Below are positions 33,783-42,803 of a DNA stretch of 64,000 bases, piece by piece. Both the position numbers and the translations under genes were made by a program. Numbering within the stretch: position 1 is the stretch's first letter; the number at the start of each line of letters is the position of its first letter. Under the pieces are notes generated by a model that was not told the DNA's origin, made no database searches, and saw nothing but the letters and a program-made list of their open reading frames with translations. Origin of the DNA: Barnesiella sp. An55 (lineage in GTDB: Bacteria; Bacteroidota; Bacteroidia; Bacteroidales; Barnesiellaceae); NCBI RefSeq assembly GCF_002161555.1, contig NZ_NFHZ01000002.1, positions 62,001-126,000 of the forward strand, given 5' to 3'.

Positions 33783-34484
33783 ATGAACCTGCTTACGTTG
33801 CTCCTGCAAACTACCGACACGGTCGCCGCACCACCCGTGCTCACCCCGGTCGAGACCGCCAACGATCTGAATCTTTGGGACCTTGCCTGCAAGGGAGGAA
33901 TCATCATGATACCCCTGCTGCTCCTCTCCTTGCTCTCTATCTATATCTTTGTTGAGCGGCTGCAAGTCATCCGACGTGCCGCCCGCGAGGACAACACCTT
34001 CATGGAACGCATCAAAGACTACATACACGAGGGTAACATCGACAGCGCCCTGAAGCTCTGCAAAAAAACCAATACCCCCTACTCGCGGCTCATCGCTAAG
34101 GGTATTTCGCGATTGGGTCGCCCCATGAACGACGTGCTGGTAGCCATCGAAAACGTGGGCAACATCGAGATTGCCAAACTCGAAAAGGGATTCCCCTGGC
34201 TCGCCACTACCGCCGCCGGAGCCCCCATGATCGGGTTTCTCGGCACCGTAACCGGTATGGTGAGAGCCTTCTACAACATGGCTTCGGCCGGCAACAATGC
34301 CGACATCTCTACCCTCTCGGGCGGTATCTACGAAGCCCTGGTCACGACCGTAGCCGGTCTCATCGTGGGTATCATCGCCCTCTTTGCCTACAACTACCTC
34401 GTGTCGCGCGTCGATGGCGTGATGAACCAACTCGAGTCTAAGACGATGGAATTTATGGACTTGCTCAACGAGCCGGCCGAATAA
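33783..34484 (+). CDS. MotA/TolQ/ExbB proton channel protein
   Basis: A 233-residue inner-membrane protein that with ExbD converts proton motive force into motion for TonB-dependent transport. It has a short N-terminal periplasmic segment, one helix near residue 35-58 (GGIIMIPLLLLSLLSIYIFV), a cytoplasmic region, and two helices with the conserved channel motif GAPMIGFLGTVTGMVRAFY and TTVAGLIVGIIALFAYNYL. It is followed 19 bases later by an ExbD gene. The target could be a TonB-dependent receptor or Tol-type partner, but the downstream TonB-like gene favours ExbB. Confidence 0.9.
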   Translation: MNLLTLLLQTTDTVAAPPVLTPVETANDLNLWDLACKGGIIMIPLLLLSLLSIYIFVERLQVIRRAAREDNTFMERIKDYIHEGNIDSALKLCKKTNTPYSRLIAKGISRLGRPMNDVLVAIENVGNIEIAKLEKGFPWLATTAAGAPMIGFLGTVTGMVRAFYNMASAGNNADISTLSGGIYEALVTTVAGLIVGIIALFAYNYLVSRVDGVMNQLESKTMEFMDLLNEPAE

Positions 34485-34503
34485 CCATAGGGAGAGTGAA
34501 ACT

Positions 34504-34920
34504 ATGGCACTGAAACGGAGACATAAAATAGAGGCCACATTCAGCATGGCATCGATGACCGATGTCATCTTTCTGTTGCTCATCTTCTTCATGATCACCT
34601 CGACGATTGTCTTTCCCAACTCCATCAAGGTAAACCTGCCCCAAAGCAACCAACAGGCGGCAGCCAAGCCCCTCACCCGGGTGACCATCGACGAGAACAT
34701 GAACTACTACATCGCCTTTGGCAACGAGGCTCCCCAACTCGTCACCTACGACGAGCTCGTACAACGCCTTGCCGAAACGCCCCAGCTCGACGAAGAACGT
34801 TTCGTCGCTCTCTATGCCGACGAAACGGTACCCTACCGCGAGATTGTCAAGGTGCTCAACATCGCCAACGACAACCACCTGAAGATGGTATTGGCCACCA
34901 AACCGGTGCGCAATCCATAA
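34504..34920 (+). CDS. ExbD/TolR biopolymer transport protein
   Basis: A 138-residue single-pass inner-membrane protein. The membrane segment SMTDVIFLLLIFFMITSTIV contains the conserved Asp (near residue 20) that takes part in proton transfer. The C-terminal periplasmic domain shows VTIDENMNYYIAFGNE and VALYADETVPYREIVKVLN, as in ExbD/TolR. It partners with the ExbB-like protein encoded directly upstream. Confidence 0.92.
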   Translation: MALKRRHKIEATFSMASMTDVIFLLLIFFMITSTIVFPNSIKVNLPQSNQQAAAKPLTRVTIDENMNYYIAFGNEAPQLVTYDELVQRLAETPQLDEERFVALYADETVPYREIVKVLNIANDNHLKMVLATKPVRNP

Positions 34921-34960
34921 CCAATATTCTCGAAAGGAAGAAACAAACGACCTCCTCACC

Positions 34961-35710
34961 ATGGAACCGCAAAAAAGAGACAAGATACAAGCTATAGCCG
35001 CTACCGTAGCCGTGCACCTCGTTGTACTGCTCGTGTTGTGGTTTACCATCCTGGGCAACGAGCCTGTGGGTGGAGGCAGCGGTGTACTGGTGCAAGTAGG
35101 ACTGGTCGATGAGGCCTCGGGCATGTTCGAGTCGAACAATACACAACCCGAGCAGGCGCAAACCGAACCGATGCGCGAGAACGACGACGAACTCATTACC
35201 CAGAACGACGAAGAGAGCGTCCAAATCGAGAAGAAAGAAAAAGAGAACAAAGAGAAAGCCGCCCAAGAAAACAAGAAAGACAACCGCATAGACAACCTGG
35301 TAAAGGGTGCATTCGGCAAAGGAGTATCGAACGACGGCAGCCGTGGCAACAGCGACAAAGGAAGCGGCACACAGGGCAACCCCTTTGGCAACTCATCGAC
35401 CGGCGAACTCATCGGTGTGGGAGGCTATGGCGGCTACAACCTGGGCGGCCGCGGGCTGGTTGGCTCGCTGCCCCAACCTCAATACGACAACAGCAACGAT
35501 GCCGGCACCATAGCCATCTCGATTACCGTCAATCCTCAGGGACAGGTCATCAACGCCATTGCCACGGTCAAAGGCAGTGAAGGCACCGCCTTCTCCAATC
35601 CCAAGCTGCGGGCCTCGGCCGAAGCTGCCGCCCGTCGCTCGCGATTCGAGCGCAGCAACCGCTCGTCAAACCAGACGGGGGTTATCGTCTATATCTTCAA
35701 ACAGAACTAA
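34961..35710 (+). CDS. TonB-like energy transducer
   Basis: A 249-residue protein with an N-terminal membrane anchor (IAATVAVHLVVLLVLWFTIL), a periplasmic linker rich in Glu, Lys, Asn and Gln from about residue 50 to 110, a Gly/Ser-rich stretch (residues 115-165), and a C-terminal region (IAISITVNPQGQVINAIATV, then RRSRFERSNRSSNQTGVIVY) that fits a TonB C-terminal fold. It would span the periplasm and energise an outer-membrane receptor. Linker composition differs from the Pro-rich linker of E. coli TonB. It ends the pdxJ-exbB-exbD cluster. Confidence 0.8.
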   Translation: MEPQKRDKIQAIAATVAVHLVVLLVLWFTILGNEPVGGGSGVLVQVGLVDEASGMFESNNTQPEQAQTEPMRENDDELITQNDEESVQIEKKEKENKEKAAQENKKDNRIDNLVKGAFGKGVSNDGSRGNSDKGSGTQGNPFGNSSTGELIGVGGYGGYNLGGRGLVGSLPQPQYDNSNDAGTIAISITVNPQGQVINAIATVKGSEGTAFSNPKLRASAEAAARRSRFERSNRSSNQTGVIVYIFKQN

Positions 35711-35779: not shown

Positions 35780-36763
35780 CTAATACCCCAGAGCGATATT
35801 GTCGATCCACAGGGTGCTGCCCAAGCCACCTACATAGGCAGTGCCACAAGTGGCCGAAGCCATCACGAGCATATGAGTCACCGGCTCGTCGGGCTTGCCC
35901 CAGCCCACCTCGATCACGGGAACCATCTTGCCCTTGCTGTTGCGGCAGTAGTAGGAACTCTCCTTGGGAATGAGCCCCATATACGATTTATAGAACGGCT
36001 TGTCGGTTATGTCGCCATAATGAATGGGTATGCTGTGGCCGTTCACCCAGCCCGAAGTACTCTTGCCGTAACGCTCCCGACCGGTACCTACGCGGTGGGC
36101 ATACACATTGCCGTCGGCATCTTCCCAACGGTGCTGCAACAGGATATAAACCTCGCCGTTGTCGCGCCCGGGCAATTGCTTGCGGGAGCTGAAGCCGGTC
36201 GATTGAGTGCGGAAGTTATCGGGCGATGCCTTGTATTTATAGTCGAAAATCAACCGGGTGGGACGCTTGGTAAAGGGGACACCCATCTCCATTTTGCTAT
36301 AAGGATTTTTGGTCGATCGAATAGGTTCGTTGACCTTGCCCAGAAAGATACTGCCGCTCACCAACACATGCATGTTCATCATGCCCAGCACACAGCAATC
36401 CTCGATTACGGTCTCCATGCAGGCACAGGTTCCACCCCCTTCGCGTTTTTCGGGGCGCACCGTATTGCTGGCCTTGACCACCCCCATCACATTGGCCATC
36501 ACATTCGACGAAGCCCAGGGCGAACCGCCCATATTCTTGTAGGCCTTGTTTCCCTTGATGTGCTGGGTAGGGGCAATGGCATAGACCGTCTTGGTCTTTC
36601 CTCCCAACAGGGACGACTCCTTGATTTCACGAGTCACCCAGTGTTCAAAATCGGCAAAGGCGAGCGACTCTACCCGCTGGGCATAGGTACTTCCTACGGT
36701 AAAAAGGCCACACACGGCCATCCAAAATGTTATTTTTCGCATCTTTTTCATATCCATTTTCAC
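35780..36763 (-). CDS. Secreted PCMD-like domain protein
   Basis: A 327-residue secreted or periplasmic protein. It has a signal peptide (KITFWMAVCGLFTVGSTYAQ) and a body resembling the PCMD (putative carbohydrate metabolism domain) family of Bacteroidetes: FADFEHW at the start, an ending of LWIDNIALGY, and an interior with many Tyr, Trp and Gly. A cluster of four Cys near residues 112-125 is unusual. Starts at 36763, 36751 or 36742 are possible; the promoter at 36778-36806 on this strand puts transcription close to the first, which leaves almost no leader, so the later ones are plausible. Family function is not known. Confidence 0.65.
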   Translation of the reverse strand: MKMDMKKMRKITFWMAVCGLFTVGSTYAQRVESLAFADFEHWVTREIKESSLLGGKTKTVYAIAPTQHIKGNKAYKNMGGSPWASSNVMANVMGVVKASNTVRPEKREGGGTCACMETVIEDCCVLGMMNMHVLVSGSIFLGKVNEPIRSTKNPYSKMEMGVPFTKRPTRLIFDYKYKASPDNFRTQSTGFSSRKQLPGRDNGEVYILLQHRWEDADGNVYAHRVGTGRERYGKSTSGWVNGHSIPIHYGDITDKPFYKSYMGLIPKESSYYCRNSKGKMVPVIEVGWGKPDEPVTHMLVMASATCGTAYVGGLGSTLWIDNIALGY

Positions 36764-36777
36764 AAATTCAGCCGGTG

Positions 36778-36806
36778 CAAAATTAAACGCTCTGCCGATT
36801 TTTCAA
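36778..36806 (-). promoter_or_regulatory. Promoter of the PCMD-like gene
   Basis: On the minus strand TTG (36806-36804) and TAATTTTG (36785-36778) are spaced by 18 bases, near the Bacteroidetes optimum. Confidence 0.55.
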
Positions 36807-36961: not shown

Positions 36962-36969
36962 TATTTTTG
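36962..36969 (+). promoter_or_regulatory. -7 box of the steroid-reductase operon
   Basis: TATTTTTG matches the Bacteroidetes -7 consensus and lies 43 bases before the first gene of the four-gene operon. No good -33 box is present at the expected distance, hinting that an activator may be required. Confidence 0.5.
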
Positions 36970-37011
36970 CGTATGGATAACTATTATATTCACCTTATTG
37001 TTCAATAGTCC

Positions 37012-37785
37012 ATGGAAACCGCCACATTCAATATTTTTTTGATTGTCATGGCCGTCACGGCTCTCATCGTATTCATAGCCCTGCATTTTGTGAGTGCGGG
37101 CTACGGTATGCTCTTCGACCGCAAATGGGGAGTCTCTCTCTCCAACCGCATCGGGTGGGTGGTGATGGAGGCCCCCGTATTCATCGCCATGCTCGTGTTG
37201 TGGGGTCTGGCTCCCGACGAATATCGCTACGACCCGGTACGCATCGCCTTTCTGGTACTGTTTCAGCTGCACTATTTCCAGCGCTCGTTCATCTTCCCCT
37301 TCCTCATCAAGGGGAACAGTCGCATGCCCCTCAGTATCGTGAGCATGGGCATCGTCTTTAACCTGCTCAACGCCTTCATGCAGGGCGGTTGGATTTTCTA
37401 CATTTCACCGCTCGACTACTATACCCCTCACTGGTTCGTCTCGCCGCAATTCATCATCGGCGTCATTGCCTTTGCAGCCGGGATGTTCATCAATATCCAG
37501 TCCGACTCCATCATACGCCACCTGCGCAAGCCTGGCGACCGTCGCCACTACATACCCCGTGGCGGCATGTTCCGCTGGGTATCGTCGGCCAACTACTTCG
37601 GCGAGTTTCTCGAGTGGGTGGGATTTGCCATCCTCACCTGGTCGTGGGCCGGAGCCGTCTTTGCCTGGTGGACGTTTGCCAACCTGGCTCCTCGCTCGGC
37701 CTCACTCTACAAGCGATACACCCAGGAGTTCGGCGAAGAATTTACCCGAGAAAAACGTAAAAAAATAATTCCTTTCATCTATTGA
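37012..37785 (+). CDS. Steroid 5-alpha-reductase family protein (3-oxo-5-alpha-steroid 4-dehydrogenase)
   Basis: A 257-residue integral membrane enzyme, almost the same length as human SRD5A2 (254). By comparison with what is known of that protein, the catalytic pair is conserved at nearly the same positions: Glu53 in MEAPVF (human Glu57) and Tyr88 in HYFQRSF (human Tyr91). The C-terminal half repeats the family pattern: YIPRGGMFRWVSSANYFGE, FLEWVGFAILTWSW, then a Tyr-rich segment and a final PFIY. Six to seven hydrophobic helices are visible. Such enzymes reduce the C4=C5 bond of 3-oxo-delta4 steroids with NADPH to the 5-alpha configuration. First gene of a four-gene operon with a flavin reductase and two SDRs. 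Substrate (bile acid, hormone, other) is inferred. Confidence 0.9.
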   Translation: METATFNIFLIVMAVTALIVFIALHFVSAGYGMLFDRKWGVSLSNRIGWVVMEAPVFIAMLVLWGLAPDEYRYDPVRIAFLVLFQLHYFQRSFIFPFLIKGNSRMPLSIVSMGIVFNLLNAFMQGGWIFYISPLDYYTPHWFVSPQFIIGVIAFAAGMFINIQSDSIIRHLRKPGDRRHYIPRGGMFRWVSSANYFGEFLEWVGFAILTWSWAGAVFAWWTFANLAPRSASLYKRYTQEFGEEFTREKRKKIIPFIY

Positions 37786-37789
37786 AATC

Positions 37790-39040
37790 ATGAACAACGA
37801 CCCGTCCTCCAAGCAGTCCATACTCTTTACACCGGCCTCGATAGGCCCTGTCACCCTGCGCAACCGCACCATCAGGTCGGCTGCCTTCGAGGGTATGTGC
37901 GACCACAACGCCCCCACTCAAAAGCTCTATGACTACCACCGCAGCGTAGCCACCGGCGGGATAGGCATGACCACGCTCGCCTATGCCTCGGTTACCCGCA
38001 ACGGACTCTCGTTCAAGCACCAGCTGTGGATGCGTCCCGAGATTGTGAAACCCCTGCGCCGCATCACCGACGCCATCCACGCCGAGGGGGCCAAAGCCTC
38101 CATTCAGCTGGGCCACTGTGGCAACATGTCGCACCGCAGCACGGCCGGTCAAATACCCATATCGGCCTCGACGGGCTTCAACCTCTACTCGCCCACCCTC
38201 GTGCGGGGCATGCACAAAGACGAAATCGAAGCCATGGCCCGAGCCTTTGGCGAAGCGGTCAACAACGCTCGCGACGCCGGTTTCGATGCCGTGGAGATTC
38301 ATGCCGGGCACGGCTACCTCATCAGCCAGTTCCTATCGCCCTATACCAACCACCGCCGCGACGAATACGGCGGCTCGCTCGACAACCGCATGCGCTTCAT
38401 GCGCATGTGCATGGAGCAGGTGATGAAAGCGGCCGGCAACGACATGGCCGTTATCGTCAAGACCAACATGCGCGACGGGTTCAAAGGTGGCATAGAGATT
38501 GACGAAGGCATACTCATTGCCCGCGAACTCGAACAGTTGGGCGCCCATGCCCTTGTGCTGAGCGGCGGTTTTGTGAGCAAGGCCCCCATGTATGTCATGC
38601 GCGGACAGATGCCCATCACCTCGCTCACCTACTACATGAAAACCTGGTGGCTCAAGTATGGCGTGAAACTGGCCGGACGTTTCATGATTCCCACCGTTCC
38701 GTTCCGCGAAGCCTACTTCCTCGACGACGCACTCAAGTTCCGCGAAGCACTCAAGCTGCCCCTCATCTATGTGGGTGGCCTGGTATCAAGACCTACCATC
38801 GACAAGGTACTCAACCACGGATTCGAGTTCGTGCAGATGGGACGAGCCCTCATCAACGAGCCCGACTTCGTCAACCGCATGAAAAACGAGGGTGAAGCTC
38901 GCTGCGGCTGCGACCACACCAACTATTGCATAGCCCGCATGTACTCCATCGAGATGGCCTGCCACAAACACCTCGAGGGACAACTGCCGCCCTGTATCGT
39001 CAAGGAGATAGAAAAGATACACCGCAATGACCCGAAATAA
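37790..39040 (+). CDS. Old Yellow Enzyme-type NADH:flavin oxidoreductase (candidate steroid 5-beta/ene-reductase)
   Basis: A 416-residue FMN-dependent TIM-barrel enzyme of the OYE superfamily. Motifs include IQLGHCGNMSH, IHAGHGYLISQFLSPYTN with the substrate-binding His pair, RRDEYGGSLDNRMRF, and LIYVGGLVSR for FMN phosphate. Unlike BaiCD or 2,4-dienoyl-CoA reductase (about 650 residues) it ends after the barrel plus a Cys-rich tail and has no FAD/NAD(P) domain. The tail has Cys372, 374, 380 and 391, an altered spacing of the usual CxxCxxxC(x11-12)C cluster motif. It starts 4 bases after the 5-alpha-reductase gene. In gut bacteria such enzymes reduce the delta4 bond of 3-oxo bile acids to 5-beta; that role here is inferred from context. 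Confidence 0.82.
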   Translation: MNNDPSSKQSILFTPASIGPVTLRNRTIRSAAFEGMCDHNAPTQKLYDYHRSVATGGIGMTTLAYASVTRNGLSFKHQLWMRPEIVKPLRRITDAIHAEGAKASIQLGHCGNMSHRSTAGQIPISASTGFNLYSPTLVRGMHKDEIEAMARAFGEAVNNARDAGFDAVEIHAGHGYLISQFLSPYTNHRRDEYGGSLDNRMRFMRMCMEQVMKAAGNDMAVIVKTNMRDGFKGGIEIDEGILIARELEQLGAHALVLSGGFVSKAPMYVMRGQMPITSLTYYMKTWWLKYGVKLAGRFMIPTVPFREAYFLDDALKFREALKLPLIYVGGLVSRPTIDKVLNHGFEFVQMGRALINEPDFVNRMKNEGEARCGCDHTNYCIARMYSIEMACHKHLEGQLPPCIVKEIEKIHRNDPK

Positions 39041-39827
39041 AAAGAACATAACCTCGTCCACGGCCCTCGTCACGGGAGCCAGCTCGGGTATCGGGCTCGA
39101 GTTTTCCCGGCAACTGGCAGCACGGGGAGCGTCACTTGTGATGGTGAGCATCGACCGCGACGACCTCGACCGCGAGGCGGCCCGCATTGTCGAGAGCTAC
39201 GGGGTACGGGTAGATACGCTGTGCATGGATCTGGCCCGCCCCGAAGCAGCCGACGAACTCTATCGATACTGTCGGGAAAAGGGGTTGACCATCGATATCG
39301 TCATCAACAATGCCGGCATCTTCTCCTTCCGCGAAGTGGTGCGGACCAACCCAGCCAAGATAGACACCATGCTCGAGCTGCACATAGGCACCGTGACCCG
39401 CCTGTCGCGCCTTTTTGCCAGCGATATGTGCGAGCGGCACCATGGCTATCTGCTCAACATGTCGTCGCTCTCGTGCTGGACTCCCTATCCCGGCATCGCC
39501 CTCTACACGGCCACCAAGGCCTACATCAGGGTATTCACACGGGCTCTGGCCTACGAACTGCGCGACTACGGCGTGCATGCCACTGTCGTGTGTCCCGGCG
39601 GTGTAGCCACCGGGCTGTATGGCCTGCCCCCTCATCTGCTGAAACTGGGTGTTCGCCTGGGTATTCTCATGACCCCCGAACGCCTTGTACACAAAGCTCT
39701 AAATGCCCTCTTCCGAGGGAAGAAACAACTCATCCCGGGAGTGTTCAACCGCCTGCTCATTCCGCTGGCCTCAATCATGCCCACCCGGATTCGTCTCATA
39801 GTCAAACACCGCATGCTCGATGAATAA
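39027..39827 (+). CDS. Short-chain dehydrogenase/reductase 1 of the steroid-reductase operon
   Basis: A 266-residue classical SDR. The Rossmann motif is VTGASSGIGLE near residues 14-24, the NNAG motif is INNAGIFSF, the catalytic Ser lies in MSSLSCW and the catalytic pair is YTATK. A C-terminal hydrophobic stretch (PHLLKLGVRLGILMTP) followed by basic residues resembles membrane-associated 17-beta-HSD12-like and DltE-like SDRs. The start overlaps the OYE gene by 14 bases, a sign of coupled translation. In this context a hydroxysteroid dehydrogenase activity (for example at C3) is a reasonable hypothesis; sequence alone does not fix position or stereochemistry. Confidence 0.85.
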   Translation: MTRNKKNITSSTALVTGASSGIGLEFSRQLAARGASLVMVSIDRDDLDREAARIVESYGVRVDTLCMDLARPEAADELYRYCREKGLTIDIVINNAGIFSFREVVRTNPAKIDTMLELHIGTVTRLSRLFASDMCERHHGYLLNMSSLSCWTPYPGIALYTATKAYIRVFTRALAYELRDYGVHATVVCPGGVATGLYGLPPHLLKLGVRLGILMTPERLVHKALNALFRGKKQLIPGVFNRLLIPLASIMPTRIRLIVKHRMLDE

Positions 39828-40689
39828 AGAATACTACATCATTACCGGAGCCAATGGCAGTATAGGCCAAGCCATTACCGAAGCTATAGCCGCTCAAGGG
39901 CAACCCGTCATCATGGCCTGCCGCAACCTGGTCAAATCGCAACCCGTGCAACAGCAACTGATCGAGAAGACCGGCAATACAGACATTACCCTGTTGCCCC
40001 TCGACCTGGCCTCGTTTGCCTCGATTATCCATTTTGCCGAACGGCTCTCGCAAGACTCGGTCGTCATACAAACCCTCGTCAACAATGCCGGTGTGATGAA
40101 TCAGTATTATAGCCAAACGACCGACGGATTCGAATCGACCATCGGAGTCAACTACATAGGCACCGTGCTGCTCACCCGCATGCTACTGCCTCTCATGCAT
40201 CCCGGCAGCCGCATCGTCACCACCACCTCGCTCACCCGGTACATCGGTAAAATCGACGAGACGTTTTTTGCCGGCTCACCACATCACTACAAACGGTTCG
40301 AGGCATACAGCAAGTCGAAACTTGCCCTCACCCTCTACACGGCCCGGCTGGCTCAGGAATTGCTCCCCCGAGGTATCTGGGTCAATGCCGCCGACCCCGG
40401 TGTAGTCGATACCGACATGATCACCATGCACTCGTGGGTCGATCCGCTGGCCAACCGTTTCTTCCGGCCCTTCATCAGCACCCCGCAGGAAGGCGCCGTC
40501 GGAGCCGTCTTTGCCGCCACTTCGCCCGAGGCCTACGGCGTCACCGGCGAGATATTCAAGAAACACAAGCACACGCCCATTCCTACCCGACTCATCCACT
40601 CACCAAGGGCCTTCTGGCTCTACGAAGAGACCGGGAAAAAGATTACCGAGGTGCTTGCCAAGCTGCCTGTAGCCAGCCCCAAAATATAA
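39820..40689 (+). CDS. Short-chain dehydrogenase/reductase 2 of the steroid-reductase operon
   Basis: A 289-residue SDR with the cofactor motif ITGANGSIGQA, the NNAGV motif, and the catalytic YSKSK. TTTSLTRY supplies the Ser position. The long loop after the catalytic helix and the late segment FFRPFISTPQEGAVGAVFAA resemble retinol dehydrogenase/protochlorophyllide-reductase-like SDRs, which act on bulky hydrophobic alcohols or ketones. It overlaps SDR1 by 8 bases and ends the operon. Only modest similarity to SDR1 is visible, so the two probably differ in substrate position rather than being a recent duplication. Confidence 0.85.
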   Translation: MNKEYYIITGANGSIGQAITEAIAAQGQPVIMACRNLVKSQPVQQQLIEKTGNTDITLLPLDLASFASIIHFAERLSQDSVVIQTLVNNAGVMNQYYSQTTDGFESTIGVNYIGTVLLTRMLLPLMHPGSRIVTTTSLTRYIGKIDETFFAGSPHHYKRFEAYSKSKLALTLYTARLAQELLPRGIWVNAADPGVVDTDMITMHSWVDPLANRFFRPFISTPQEGAVGAVFAATSPEAYGVTGEIFKKHKHTPIPTRLIHSPRAFWLYEETGKKITEVLAKLPVASPKI

Positions 40690-41188: not shown

Positions 41189-41221
41189 TTTGGCTTTTCG
41201 AGCTTCTTATTGTTACCTTTA
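41189..41221 (+). promoter_or_regulatory. Promoter of the AraC-family gene
   Basis: TTTG (41189-41192) and TACCTTTA (41214-41221) are 21 bases apart. Transcription would start near 41228, just ahead of the ATG at 41238. Confidence 0.45.
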
Positions 41222-41237
41222 TGAAAATTTTGGGACC

Positions 41238-42089
41238 ATGGAGAGTATCGACAGTTTGCAAATAGGACACTCTTGTGAAAAAGGAGACGAGTTCAAGATT
41301 CAATGCCACACGACCGACCATTCAAACATAGAAGTGCCCTTCTCTCATAAACATGCCTTCTATGCGATTTACTGGATTCACCAAGGTTCAGGGACACATG
41401 TCATCGATTTTGAAAACTACTCCATAATTCCCAATCGACTGTTTTTTATCAAACCCGAACAGATTCATTTTCTACACAGTACAAAATCGGTAGAATATTC
41501 GGCCATACAGTTTACCCAGAATTTTATCCTACCTATCCTCAATACCATGCAAAGACTCTCATTTCAAAGGCCACTTGCTACATATAGCGATTTGAATGAA
41601 CAGGAACAGAAACGACTTTCCACGCTGTTCGAGCAAATTGCAATCGAGTCGAGGAGCAGTCTTCCCAACTCTACCCTTCTTATCCAGTCCGAGCTAAACA
41701 CACTGCTTTTGGAATGGGCACGACTTTCACTACCCCATGCAAAACCCGATGCCTTTCCCCTTCTGTTGCTCAAATATAAAGACCTTATCGAGCAACGATT
41801 TTCTGTGCAGCGACAAGTACGGTACTATGCCGCTCAACTGGGTGTAACCCCCAACTACCTCAACATACTCACACAAAAGCACTGCAACAAATCGGCATTG
41901 GCTCTAATTAACGATCGGGTAATACTTGAAGCCAAGCGACTTTTGGTGCGTTCCGACAAAGATATAACCGAAATTGCCTACCTGCTGGGATTCAACGAAT
42001 TGTCCTATTTTTCCAAATTCTTTAGACAACACACAGATTCAACCCCTATCCAATTTCGCAACAAAATGAATAAAATGTACCAAGACTGA
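41238..42089 (+). CDS. AraC family transcriptional regulator
   Basis: A 283-residue regulator with an N-terminal cupin-like sensor domain (residues about 20-150; IYWIHQGSGTHVIDFENYSI) and a C-terminal double helix-turn-helix domain (RQVRYYAAQLGVTPNYLNIL, then DITEIAYLLGFNELSYFSKFFRQH). The frame extends upstream to 41190, but the promoter boxes fall in that part, so 41238 is the start. It follows the steroid-reductase operon on the same strand, separated by a 548-base regulatory region, and precedes a CDF metal exporter. It could control either neighbour; AraC proteins typically sense small organic molecules, which favours the former. Confidence 0.88.
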   Translation: MESIDSLQIGHSCEKGDEFKIQCHTTDHSNIEVPFSHKHAFYAIYWIHQGSGTHVIDFENYSIIPNRLFFIKPEQIHFLHSTKSVEYSAIQFTQNFILPILNTMQRLSFQRPLATYSDLNEQEQKRLSTLFEQIAIESRSSLPNSTLLIQSELNTLLLEWARLSLPHAKPDAFPLLLLKYKDLIEQRFSVQRQVRYYAAQLGVTPNYLNILTQKHCNKSALALINDRVILEAKRLLVRSDKDITEIAYLLGFNELSYFSKFFRQHTDSTPIQFRNKMNKMYQD

Positions 42090-42152: not shown

Positions 42153-42803
42153 ATGACACAAGGAAACAGCATTACTCAAGAACAACGAAACAAGGGAGAA
42201 AGAAGAACCGCATTTGTCGTACTCTTCTCAGCCGCGACCATGATTCTGGAAATTATTTTCGGACTGCTATCCAAATCGATGGCACTCCTGGCCGATGGCA
42301 TACACATGGGTTCACACGTCTTAGCTATCGGGCTAAGTTGGGGGGCCTACATTCTGGTACGACACCTTGAAAAAAAACCAGCTCGCAATATTGACAGTGA
42401 GAAAGTTCTCGCCTTGTCGGCTTACACAAGCGGTATATTACTACTCGTCTTTGCTCTTTTTATCATCATCGAGGCCTTCAAGCGATTTTTCTCACCACAG
42501 ATAGAGATACACTATGTCGAAGCGATGATTGTAGCAGTCATAGGCATGCTGGTGAATCTCATCTGTGCCTTTATTCTTCACGACAGAAACAGCGGGCACA
42601 TCGATTACAACCGACACTCGGCCTACCTGCACATCCTGGCCGATGCCCTCACAAGCATTGGGGCCATATTCGGCTTAATATGCGCCATGATTTGGCATAT
42701 CATCTGGATCGACACCCTCGTTGCCTTGGTATGCTCGCTCGTGATTATTCGCTGGGCCTATAGACTACTTATCGATACCGGGCGTAAATTAACCCTCAAC
42801 TGA
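42153..42803 (+). CDS. Cation diffusion facilitator (CDF) family metal exporter
   Basis: A 216-residue membrane protein with six predicted helices and the two CDF metal sites: SMALLADGIHMGSHV in helix 2 (D and H ligands; most CDFs have HxxxD) and YLHILADALTSIGAI in helix 5. Between helices 4 and 5 is a short RHSAYLH segment. It lacks the C-terminal cytoplasmic domain present in most CDFs (usual length about 300), as in the short DmeF-like or CzcD-like forms. The metal could be Zn, Co or Cd. It ends before a bidirectional terminator. Confidence 0.85.
   Translation: MTQGNSITQEQRNKGERRTAFVVLFSAATMILEIIFGLLSKSMALLADGIHMGSHVLAIGLSWGAYILVRHLEKKPARNIDSEKVLALSAYTSGILLLVFALFIIIEAFKRFFSPQIEIHYVEAMIVAVIGMLVNLICAFILHDRNSGHIDYNRHSAYLHILADALTSIGAIFGLICAMIWHIIWIDTLVALVCSLVIIRWAYRLLIDTGRKLTLN

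Follow-up and report, generated by a model that had tools for sequence, protein, structure and literature searches.

The 64,000-nucleotide stretch of the Barnesiella sp. An55 genome analyzed here (hereafter 'the window'; 53% G+C, from an assembly of 3.03 Mb) contains four genes that lie head to tail on the plus strand and encode a relative of SRD5A-type steroid 5-alpha-reductases (5AR), a short flavoenzyme of the old yellow enzyme (OYE) type, and two short-chain dehydrogenases (SDR1 and SDR2) (Table 1). The open reading frame coordinates bear out the original prediction of this tightly packed unit, wherein successive genes are separated by +4, -14 and -8 bases. That prediction also placed a single Bacteroides-type -7 box ahead of the first gene. 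The pattern is indeed present, and because TAnnTTTG occurs 52 times on the two strands of the 64-kb window, this box alone is weak evidence. The arrangement itself is not due to chance, given that the same four genes recur in identical order and with close spacing in all eight further genomes of the window genus. A gene for a probably exported PCMD-domain protein diverges from the operon, and the two share a 248-base intergenic region with one -7-like box for each direction.

Table 1. Features of the operon and its surroundings (positions in the window)
Feature	Positions	Strand	Match or remark
PCMD-domain protein, 327 residues, divergent from operon, probably exported	35780..36763	-	PF13201, 1.1e-27
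-7-like box TAATTTTG for PCMD gene	36778..36785	-	pattern match
Bacteroides-type -7 box TATTTTTG of operon	36962..36969	+	pattern match
5AR, SRD5A-type steroid 5-alpha-reductase, 257 residues	37012..37785	+	PF02544 (Steroid_dh), 1.2e-42; 7c83, 5.2e-51
Short OYE-type flavoenzyme, probable 3-oxo-delta4 5-beta-reductase (5BR), 416 residues	37790..39040	+	PF00724 (Oxidored_FMN), 2.6e-56
SDR1, classical short-chain dehydrogenase, 266 residues	39027..39827	+	PF00106 (adh_short), 3.6e-40
SDR2, candidate 3-beta-hydroxysteroid dehydrogenase, 289 residues	39820..40689	+	PF00106 (adh_short), 7e-30
AraC-type regulator	41190..42089		downstream of operon
DmeF-like CDF transporter	42153..42803		downstream; then a fructose-bisphosphate-aldolase-like gene

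To place this operon among its relatives, we used a set of 118 loci with a 5AR gene: eight from window-genus genomes, the best 80 of 587 confirmed stretches, 12 from other relatives, 17 from a sample of the Parabacteroides genus (where 20 of 38 genomes carry 5AR and loci were taken from 17 of those 20), and one from a Phocaeicola massiliensis record. All figures that use this set inherit its scope, and two genomes are counted twice in it (L036 = L053, L041 = L081). Neighbor counts cover the 107 loci that remained after 11 with less than 3 kb of downstream sequence were skipped, and residue counts for 100 homologues are drawn from loci L033-L132, which also hold two genomes twice. A second sample is an even draw of 295 Bacteroidales genomes. 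Its co-occurrence cut-offs (E values of 1e-80 for 5AR, 1e-150 for SULT-type sulfotransferases, and 1e-30 for CBAH, the bile salt hydrolase family) were picked after the lists had been inspected and fall within wide gaps (1.9e-83 to 1.1e-58 in the 5AR list, 7.9e-151 to 1.7e-89 in the SULT list), and the genome lists behind these tables were transcribed by hand.

An OYE gene lies beside 5AR in 97 of the 107 loci (9/9 in the window genus, 15/16 in Parabacteroides, and 73/82 elsewhere). Both SDR genes accompany it in all nine window-genus loci, and 15 of 16 Parabacteroides loci combine OYE with SDR2, the remaining one having none of OYE, SDR1, SDR2 or PCMD. Among the other 82 loci, the commonest combinations are OYE and SDR1 (39), OYE with both SDRs (19), OYE, SDR1 and PCMD (6), and all four neighbors (5); the remainder have OYE and SDR2 (3), SDR2 only (2), OYE only (1) or none (7). 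In the even sample, 35 of 295 genomes have a 5AR match at E ≤ 1e-80, and 30 of the 35 have an OYE gene no more than 3 kb away from it (the exceptions are G009, G011, G127, G155 and G224). Conversely, 44 of the 46 genomes with a window-type OYE (E ≤ 1e-90) have a 5AR match at 1e-40.

The genus anchored on the named species Parabacteroides massiliensis carries the operon. A 6.8-Mb genome of the Parabacteroides genus (G313, locus L190) has a solitary 5AR gene with no OYE or SDR neighbors. Searches of phages with 5AR and of viral contigs with the OYE returned no match, and a plasmid search with 5AR returned two records, from Nocardia farcinica (33% identity) and Phocaeicola massiliensis. The latter (OY726067.1, locus L137) carries 5AR, OYE and SDR2 on what is titled a plasmid and may be a mislabeled piece of chromosome. 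A metagenome-assembled genome titled Pseudoflavonifractor (JAMPAQ010000001.1, locus L094) has a full Bacteroidales-type operon with 67% identity in 5AR and is probably mislabeled.

The assignment of the first protein to the SRD5A family stands, as its PF02544 match and its length close to the expected 255 or so residues indicate. The nearest solved structures are a bacterial SRD5A, PbSRD5A (7c83), and human SRD5A2 (7bw1, 2e-37). As originally proposed, Glu53 and Tyr88 are present as equivalents of the catalytic Glu57 and Tyr91 (human numbering), and both are unchanged in 16 of 16 aligned relatives. Eight residues are described as contacting NADPH in SRD5A enzymes (N160, D164, R171, N193, E197, R227, H231 and Y235; PMC7815742), and by-eye mapping from the structure-match alignment indicates that seven of these are kept in 5AR, whereas His231 is replaced by Leu232. 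Among the 100 homologues, 95 have Leu or Ile here, three have Thr and two retain His.

A second departure from solved SRD5A enzymes had been overlooked at first. The published Gln-Glu-Tyr (QEY) motif includes a glutamine, human Gln56, whose Ala and Leu variants are inactive (PMC7815742), and the window 5AR has Met52 in its place. All 100 homologues share this Met, as do all 17 loci examined in the genus containing P. massiliensis and the Phocaeicola locus. When 5AR is disrupted in Parabacteroides merdae, allolithocholic acid (alloLCA) derivatives reportedly no longer form (PMC10382948). Given this genetic result and the presence of Met in every Parabacteroides-genus locus examined, we suspect that Met-Glu-Tyr is probably a working active-site variant of Bacteroidales 5-alpha-reductases.

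The second enzyme of the operon is related to, but distinct from, BaiCD. It scores 189.2 bits against the NCBIfam BaiCD model, for which the cut-off is 825, and its best stretch covers only the N-terminal part of the 642 model positions. Its length, compared with approximately 640 residues for BaiCD, and this low score rule out a BaiCD orthologue. Residues C110, H171, H174, Y176 and Q180 are invariant in 104 of 104 aligned OYEs (the window protein and 103 operon OYEs). Shortly before its end, the protein carries three conserved cysteines, C374, C380 and C391, with the spacing C-x5-C-x10-C; these are found in 102 of the 104 proteins, and the other two are gapped there. We take this pattern to recall the Fe-S motif of FadH and BaiCD, with other spacing, and the cysteines may possibly hold an Fe-S cluster that was retained when the C-terminal half of the BaiCD/FadH architecture was lost. 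A structure predicted from the single sequence (mean predicted local distance difference test score, pLDDT, of 38) is too poor to read the proximity of C110, C374, C380 and C391.

Compared with BaiCD/FadH-type enzymes and a gut steroid 5-beta-reductase (Arp et al., 2025; PMC12238238), the window OYE shares the barrel domain and the HGY catalytic region, but it lacks the C-terminal half and spaces its cysteines differently. Motif alignment places G175 and Q180 at two pocket positions that are N166 and S171 in the clade acting on hormones and Tyr or Ser and Glu in BaiCD (PMC12238238). Because the window residues are unlike those of either group, the pocket gives no verdict on the substrate.

These enzymes match a type of gene cluster that is already in the literature. 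According to review descriptions of the work of Sato et al. (2021; PMC10382948), Bacteroidota 5AR genes lie in clusters with a predicted 3-beta-hydroxysteroid dehydrogenase (3-beta-HSDH) and an NADH:flavin oxidoreductase hypothesized to be a 5-beta-reductase, and the Bacteroidota 5AR acts on 3-oxo-delta4-lithocholic acid (3-oxo-delta4-LCA). A Bacteroidetes cluster for isoallolithocholic acid (isoalloLCA) is also cited in PMC12697870. As in these clusters, the 5AR gene in the window adjoins a gene for a flavin oxidoreductase that resembles BaiCD and one for a predicted hydroxysteroid dehydrogenase in a gut Bacteroidales species, here on one strand. In contrast to the cluster as the review describes it, the overlapping unit in the window contains two SDR genes, and a PCMD gene diverges from it. 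According to the original prediction, the joint occurrence of the two kinds of reductase in such a unit marks an under-described system. Given the earlier report, this claim of novelty falls, whereas the chemistry it proposed (5-alpha and 5-beta reduction of the A ring together with hydroxysteroid dehydrogenases acting on 3-oxo-delta4 substrates) fits the family assignments and remains plausible. We therefore consider it likely that this well-conserved operon belongs to the reported Bacteroidota 5AR/5BR/3-beta-HSDH clusters for bile acid isomerization.

The proposed route would invert the configuration of the A ring. What these loci show directly is gene content, gene order, conservation and motifs; the substrates, the direction, the roles of the SDRs and any role of PCMD are inferred. 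Most likely, the operon serves to shift bile acids, or else other steroids of the 3-oxo-delta4 type, from the 5-beta to the 5-alpha form and to set the C3 hydroxyl group. Specifically, the short OYE would bring 5-beta bile acids of the lithocholic or deoxycholic acid type, once oxidized at C3, into equilibrium with their 3-oxo-delta4 form. Next, the membrane-bound SRD5A-type enzyme would use NADPH to reduce the delta4 double bond from the alpha face, giving a flat 5-alpha (allo) 3-ketone, and an SDR, most likely SDR2, would reduce this ketone to the 3-beta-hydroxy (isoallo) product. SDR1 would probably serve another position or the opposite C3 epimer, and the divergently encoded, probably exported PCMD protein may have an extracytoplasmic part in the pathway. 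The host genome also encodes a member of the CBAH family (2.1e-66). The end product is of interest because isoalloLCA is reported to inhibit Gram-positive pathogens including C. difficile at 1-3 µM (PMC10382948) and to promote regulatory T cells through foxp3 (PMC13008668). Once it is known which genus holds the complete route in a single operon and which SDR carries out the 3-beta step, its contribution in the gut can be put to a direct test.

Some observations weigh against this bile acid assignment of the operon. The substitutions at Gln56 and His231 affect positions that have been linked to function in studies of SRD5A enzymes, and at 10 of the 107 loci 5AR has no OYE neighbor. Perhaps the same chemistry is directed at steroid hormones or at dietary or host sterols (progesterone, cholestenone, phytosterol ketones) as the natural substrates. 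PbSRD5A, the closest solved bacterial relative, prefers progesterone (PMC7815742), and a separate clade of gut 5-beta-reductases works on hormones (PMC12238238). Moreover, 61 genomes have a 5AR match at 1e-40, and because 26 of these hold only a distant type (36-45% identity), none of which is among the 45 genomes with a PCMD gene, the family is wider than a single bile acid niche. We nevertheless regard hormones or sterols as unlikely to be the natural substrates, given the reported activity of the Bacteroidota enzyme on 3-oxo-delta4-LCA; the OYE pocket, being unlike that of the hormone clade and also unlike that of BaiCD, does not decide the matter.

It is also conceivable that the operon serves lipid or enone housekeeping or detoxification, such as enoyl or enone reduction, and has no link to steroids. 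Both the OYE and SDR families are broad, 5AR has a weak match to Pfam DUF1295 (1.6e-4), a probable very-long-chain enoyl-CoA reductase comes third among its solved-structure matches (1e-11), and Met52 and Leu232 deviate from SRD5A enzymes. However, the similarity to SRD5A (5e-51) is far stronger, the Bacteroidota 5AR is genetically needed for alloLCA derivatives (PMC10382948), and 5AR or SULT occurs in 32 of 48 genomes that are positive for the bile salt hydrolase family versus 16 of 247 that are negative. A function unrelated to steroids thus seems highly improbable, and bile acid isomerization remains our preferred reading.

Within this isomerization scheme, the two SDRs are assigned different candidate roles. 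SDR1 has the motifs TGASSGIG, NNAG and YTATK. SDR2 has NNAG and YSKSK, the latter agreeing with YxxxK, while its TGANGSIG departs from the strict TGxxxGxG pattern; its best NCBIfam model is PRK06197 at 147 bits, under the cut-off of 268. The presence of each gene varies independently across loci. Parabacteroides-genus operons have the order 5AR-OYE-SDR2 without SDR1 in 15 of 16 cases. Loci whose titles name Alistipes or Rikenellaceae number 35, four of them too short; 28 of the remaining 31 have 5AR-OYE-SDR1 and lack SDR2, and the exceptions have both SDRs (L071), SDR2 (L076) or none of these neighbors (L121). In Table 1 of PMC12692668, which cites Sato et al. (2021), P. merdae, O. laneus, Odoribacteraceae and P. 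distasonis are listed for 3-beta-HSDH, whereas A. onderdonkii and B. thetaiotaomicron are listed for 5-alpha-reductase only, with P. goldsteinii also appearing under 5-alpha-reductase. Set beside these listings, the distribution of the two SDRs points, by an indirect argument, to SDR2 as the better candidate for the 3-beta-HSDH and to something else for SDR1. Two facts count against this assignment. The argument borrows phenotypes of species that are not matched to the surveyed loci and leaves out B. thetaiotaomicron. Also, P. distasonis is reported to be without a 5AR gene (PMC6069880) yet is listed for 3-beta-HSDH, which implies that other 3-beta-HSDHs exist.

The product of the divergent PCMD gene matches PF13201, a domain named 'putative carbohydrate metabolism', with 97.7 bits (gathering score 28), and is one of four such matches in the host genome, the other three lying together on contig C47. 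A signal-like N-terminus, judged by eye, suggests that the protein is probably exported, and the true start is probably an internal ATG near position 36751. Of 100 loci, 21 have a PCMD gene near 5AR, a figure that dereplication brings to 14 of 81; nine of the 21 belong to the window genus (one a duplicate) and 12 lie elsewhere. Of these 12, the gene is divergent only in L071, upstream on the same strand in three (L115, L122, L130), and downstream of 5AR on the operon strand in eight (L084, L086, L105, L111, L116, L118, L119, L129). In family f82, a PCMD gene is paired with a second SDR1 paralogue, 11-37 bases apart (L205, 2487-4279; L206, 16581-18378; L214, 292-2076); the pair lies approximately 10-12 kb from 5AR in L205 and L206 and on a short contig in L214.

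A search of the 295 genomes with the PCMD protein (E ≤ 1e-15) found 51 places in 45 genomes. Forty-seven of them lie outside the window genus, and we inspected 44 of these. In 11 of these 44 loci, the PCMD gene starts 1-58 bases behind a sulfotransferase gene, and the one such sulfotransferase that was checked belongs to Sulfotransfer_3. CysN, CysD and CysC genes precede the sulfotransferase in 10 of the 11, together with a sulfate-type symporter in seven. A twelfth case, in G284, was recognized from match coordinates, and the loci span five families (f12, f61, f79, f89 and f106). By layout rather than by sequence, these operons, with the order CysC-CysD-CysN-sulfotransferase and PCMD directly behind, resemble the steroid sulfation cluster BT_0412-BT_0416, in which cholesterol is a substrate of the sulfotransferase BT_0416 (Le et al., 2022; PMC9417993); isoalloLCA is likewise among the listed substrates of the btSULT enzyme (PMC11271093). 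Unlike that cluster and these relatives, the window genome has no SULT-type sulfotransferase at E ≤ 1e-60.

The association extends to whole genomes. A PCMD gene is present in 28 of the 35 genomes with a strong 5AR match and in 23 of the 24 (among 295) with a SULT match, and 5AR or SULT occurs in 40 of 45 genomes with PCMD versus 8 of 250 without it, uncorrected for relatedness. At the level of 120 families, 5AR or SULT is found in each of the 18 that have PCMD and in three that do not. These observations raise the possibility, to which we give slightly less than even weight, that the PCMD protein is an unrecognized extracytoplasmic part of steroid and bile acid metabolism in gut Bacteroidales, common to 5AR/5BR/HSDH and SULT operons. 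It may, for example, be a periplasmic or surface carrier that binds sterols or bile acids, or an enzyme that acts on conjugated steroids.

Several results weigh against such a role and would fit a bystander, namely a polysaccharide-associated protein that is common in gut Bacteroidales and lies near these operons by chance. Neither operon is present in the fetched DNA (approximately 5 kb or less per side) at 29 of the 44 PCMD loci outside the genus, and one further locus, L227, offers no more than a weak SDR match at a distance of 1.6 kb. The family name refers to carbohydrate metabolism. When a structure model built with 12 sequences (mean pLDDT 65) was submitted to Foldseek, matches at E ≤ 0.001 comprised only PCMD-type 'putative glycoside hydrolases' (six chains from four proteins), with no hint of a steroid pocket. 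The uncorrected relatedness and the post hoc cut-offs add to these doubts. Furthermore, habitat confounds the association because the bile salt hydrolase family, a marker of the gut niche, also tracks PCMD (32/45 genomes with PCMD versus 16/250 without). On the other side, PCMD adjoins two different steroid-type operons in several families, and its association with 5AR or SULT persists among genomes positive for bile salt hydrolase (30/32 with PCMD versus 2/16 without); the corresponding numbers among negative genomes are 10/13 and 6/234. A bystander is accordingly a serious contender, whose chances we would put close to those of a coin toss.

If the PCMD protein does take part in steroid metabolism, then the 'carbohydrate' label of the window-type subfamily would be wrong, isoallo-bile-acid formation would be joined to steroid sulfation through a common part, and the protein would offer a handle on how poorly soluble steroids are bound or moved outside the cytoplasm. 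A literature search with loose terms showed no relevant title among the 20 listed of 13,923, and the searches made turned up no description of a link between PCMD and 5AR or sulfotransferase operons, which does not prove that none exists. What this analysis usefully adds is the Met-Glu-Tyr site, the SDR2 assignment and, above all, PCMD as a candidate part common to isomerization and sulfation.

Neither the AraC-type regulator nor the CDF transporter downstream was matched in the eight window-genus loci (for L034, only approximately 2 kb downstream was available), and so both were rejected as operon parts and segment 41190-42803 is probably a strain-specific insertion. AraC-type regulators (36-37% local identity) are located upstream of 5AR in the Parabacteroides-genus loci L196 and L199. 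Other recurrent neighbors of 5AR, each in at most 11 of 81 dereplicated loci, were set aside as housekeeping genes by eye (phosphofructokinase, PyrK/PyrD, YchF, MltG). Upstream of the PCMD gene, positions 33783-35710 hold an operon judged by eye to be ExbB/ExbD/TonB-like, and TonB- and ExbD-like genes are both found near the 5AR operon in six of the eight window-genus loci.

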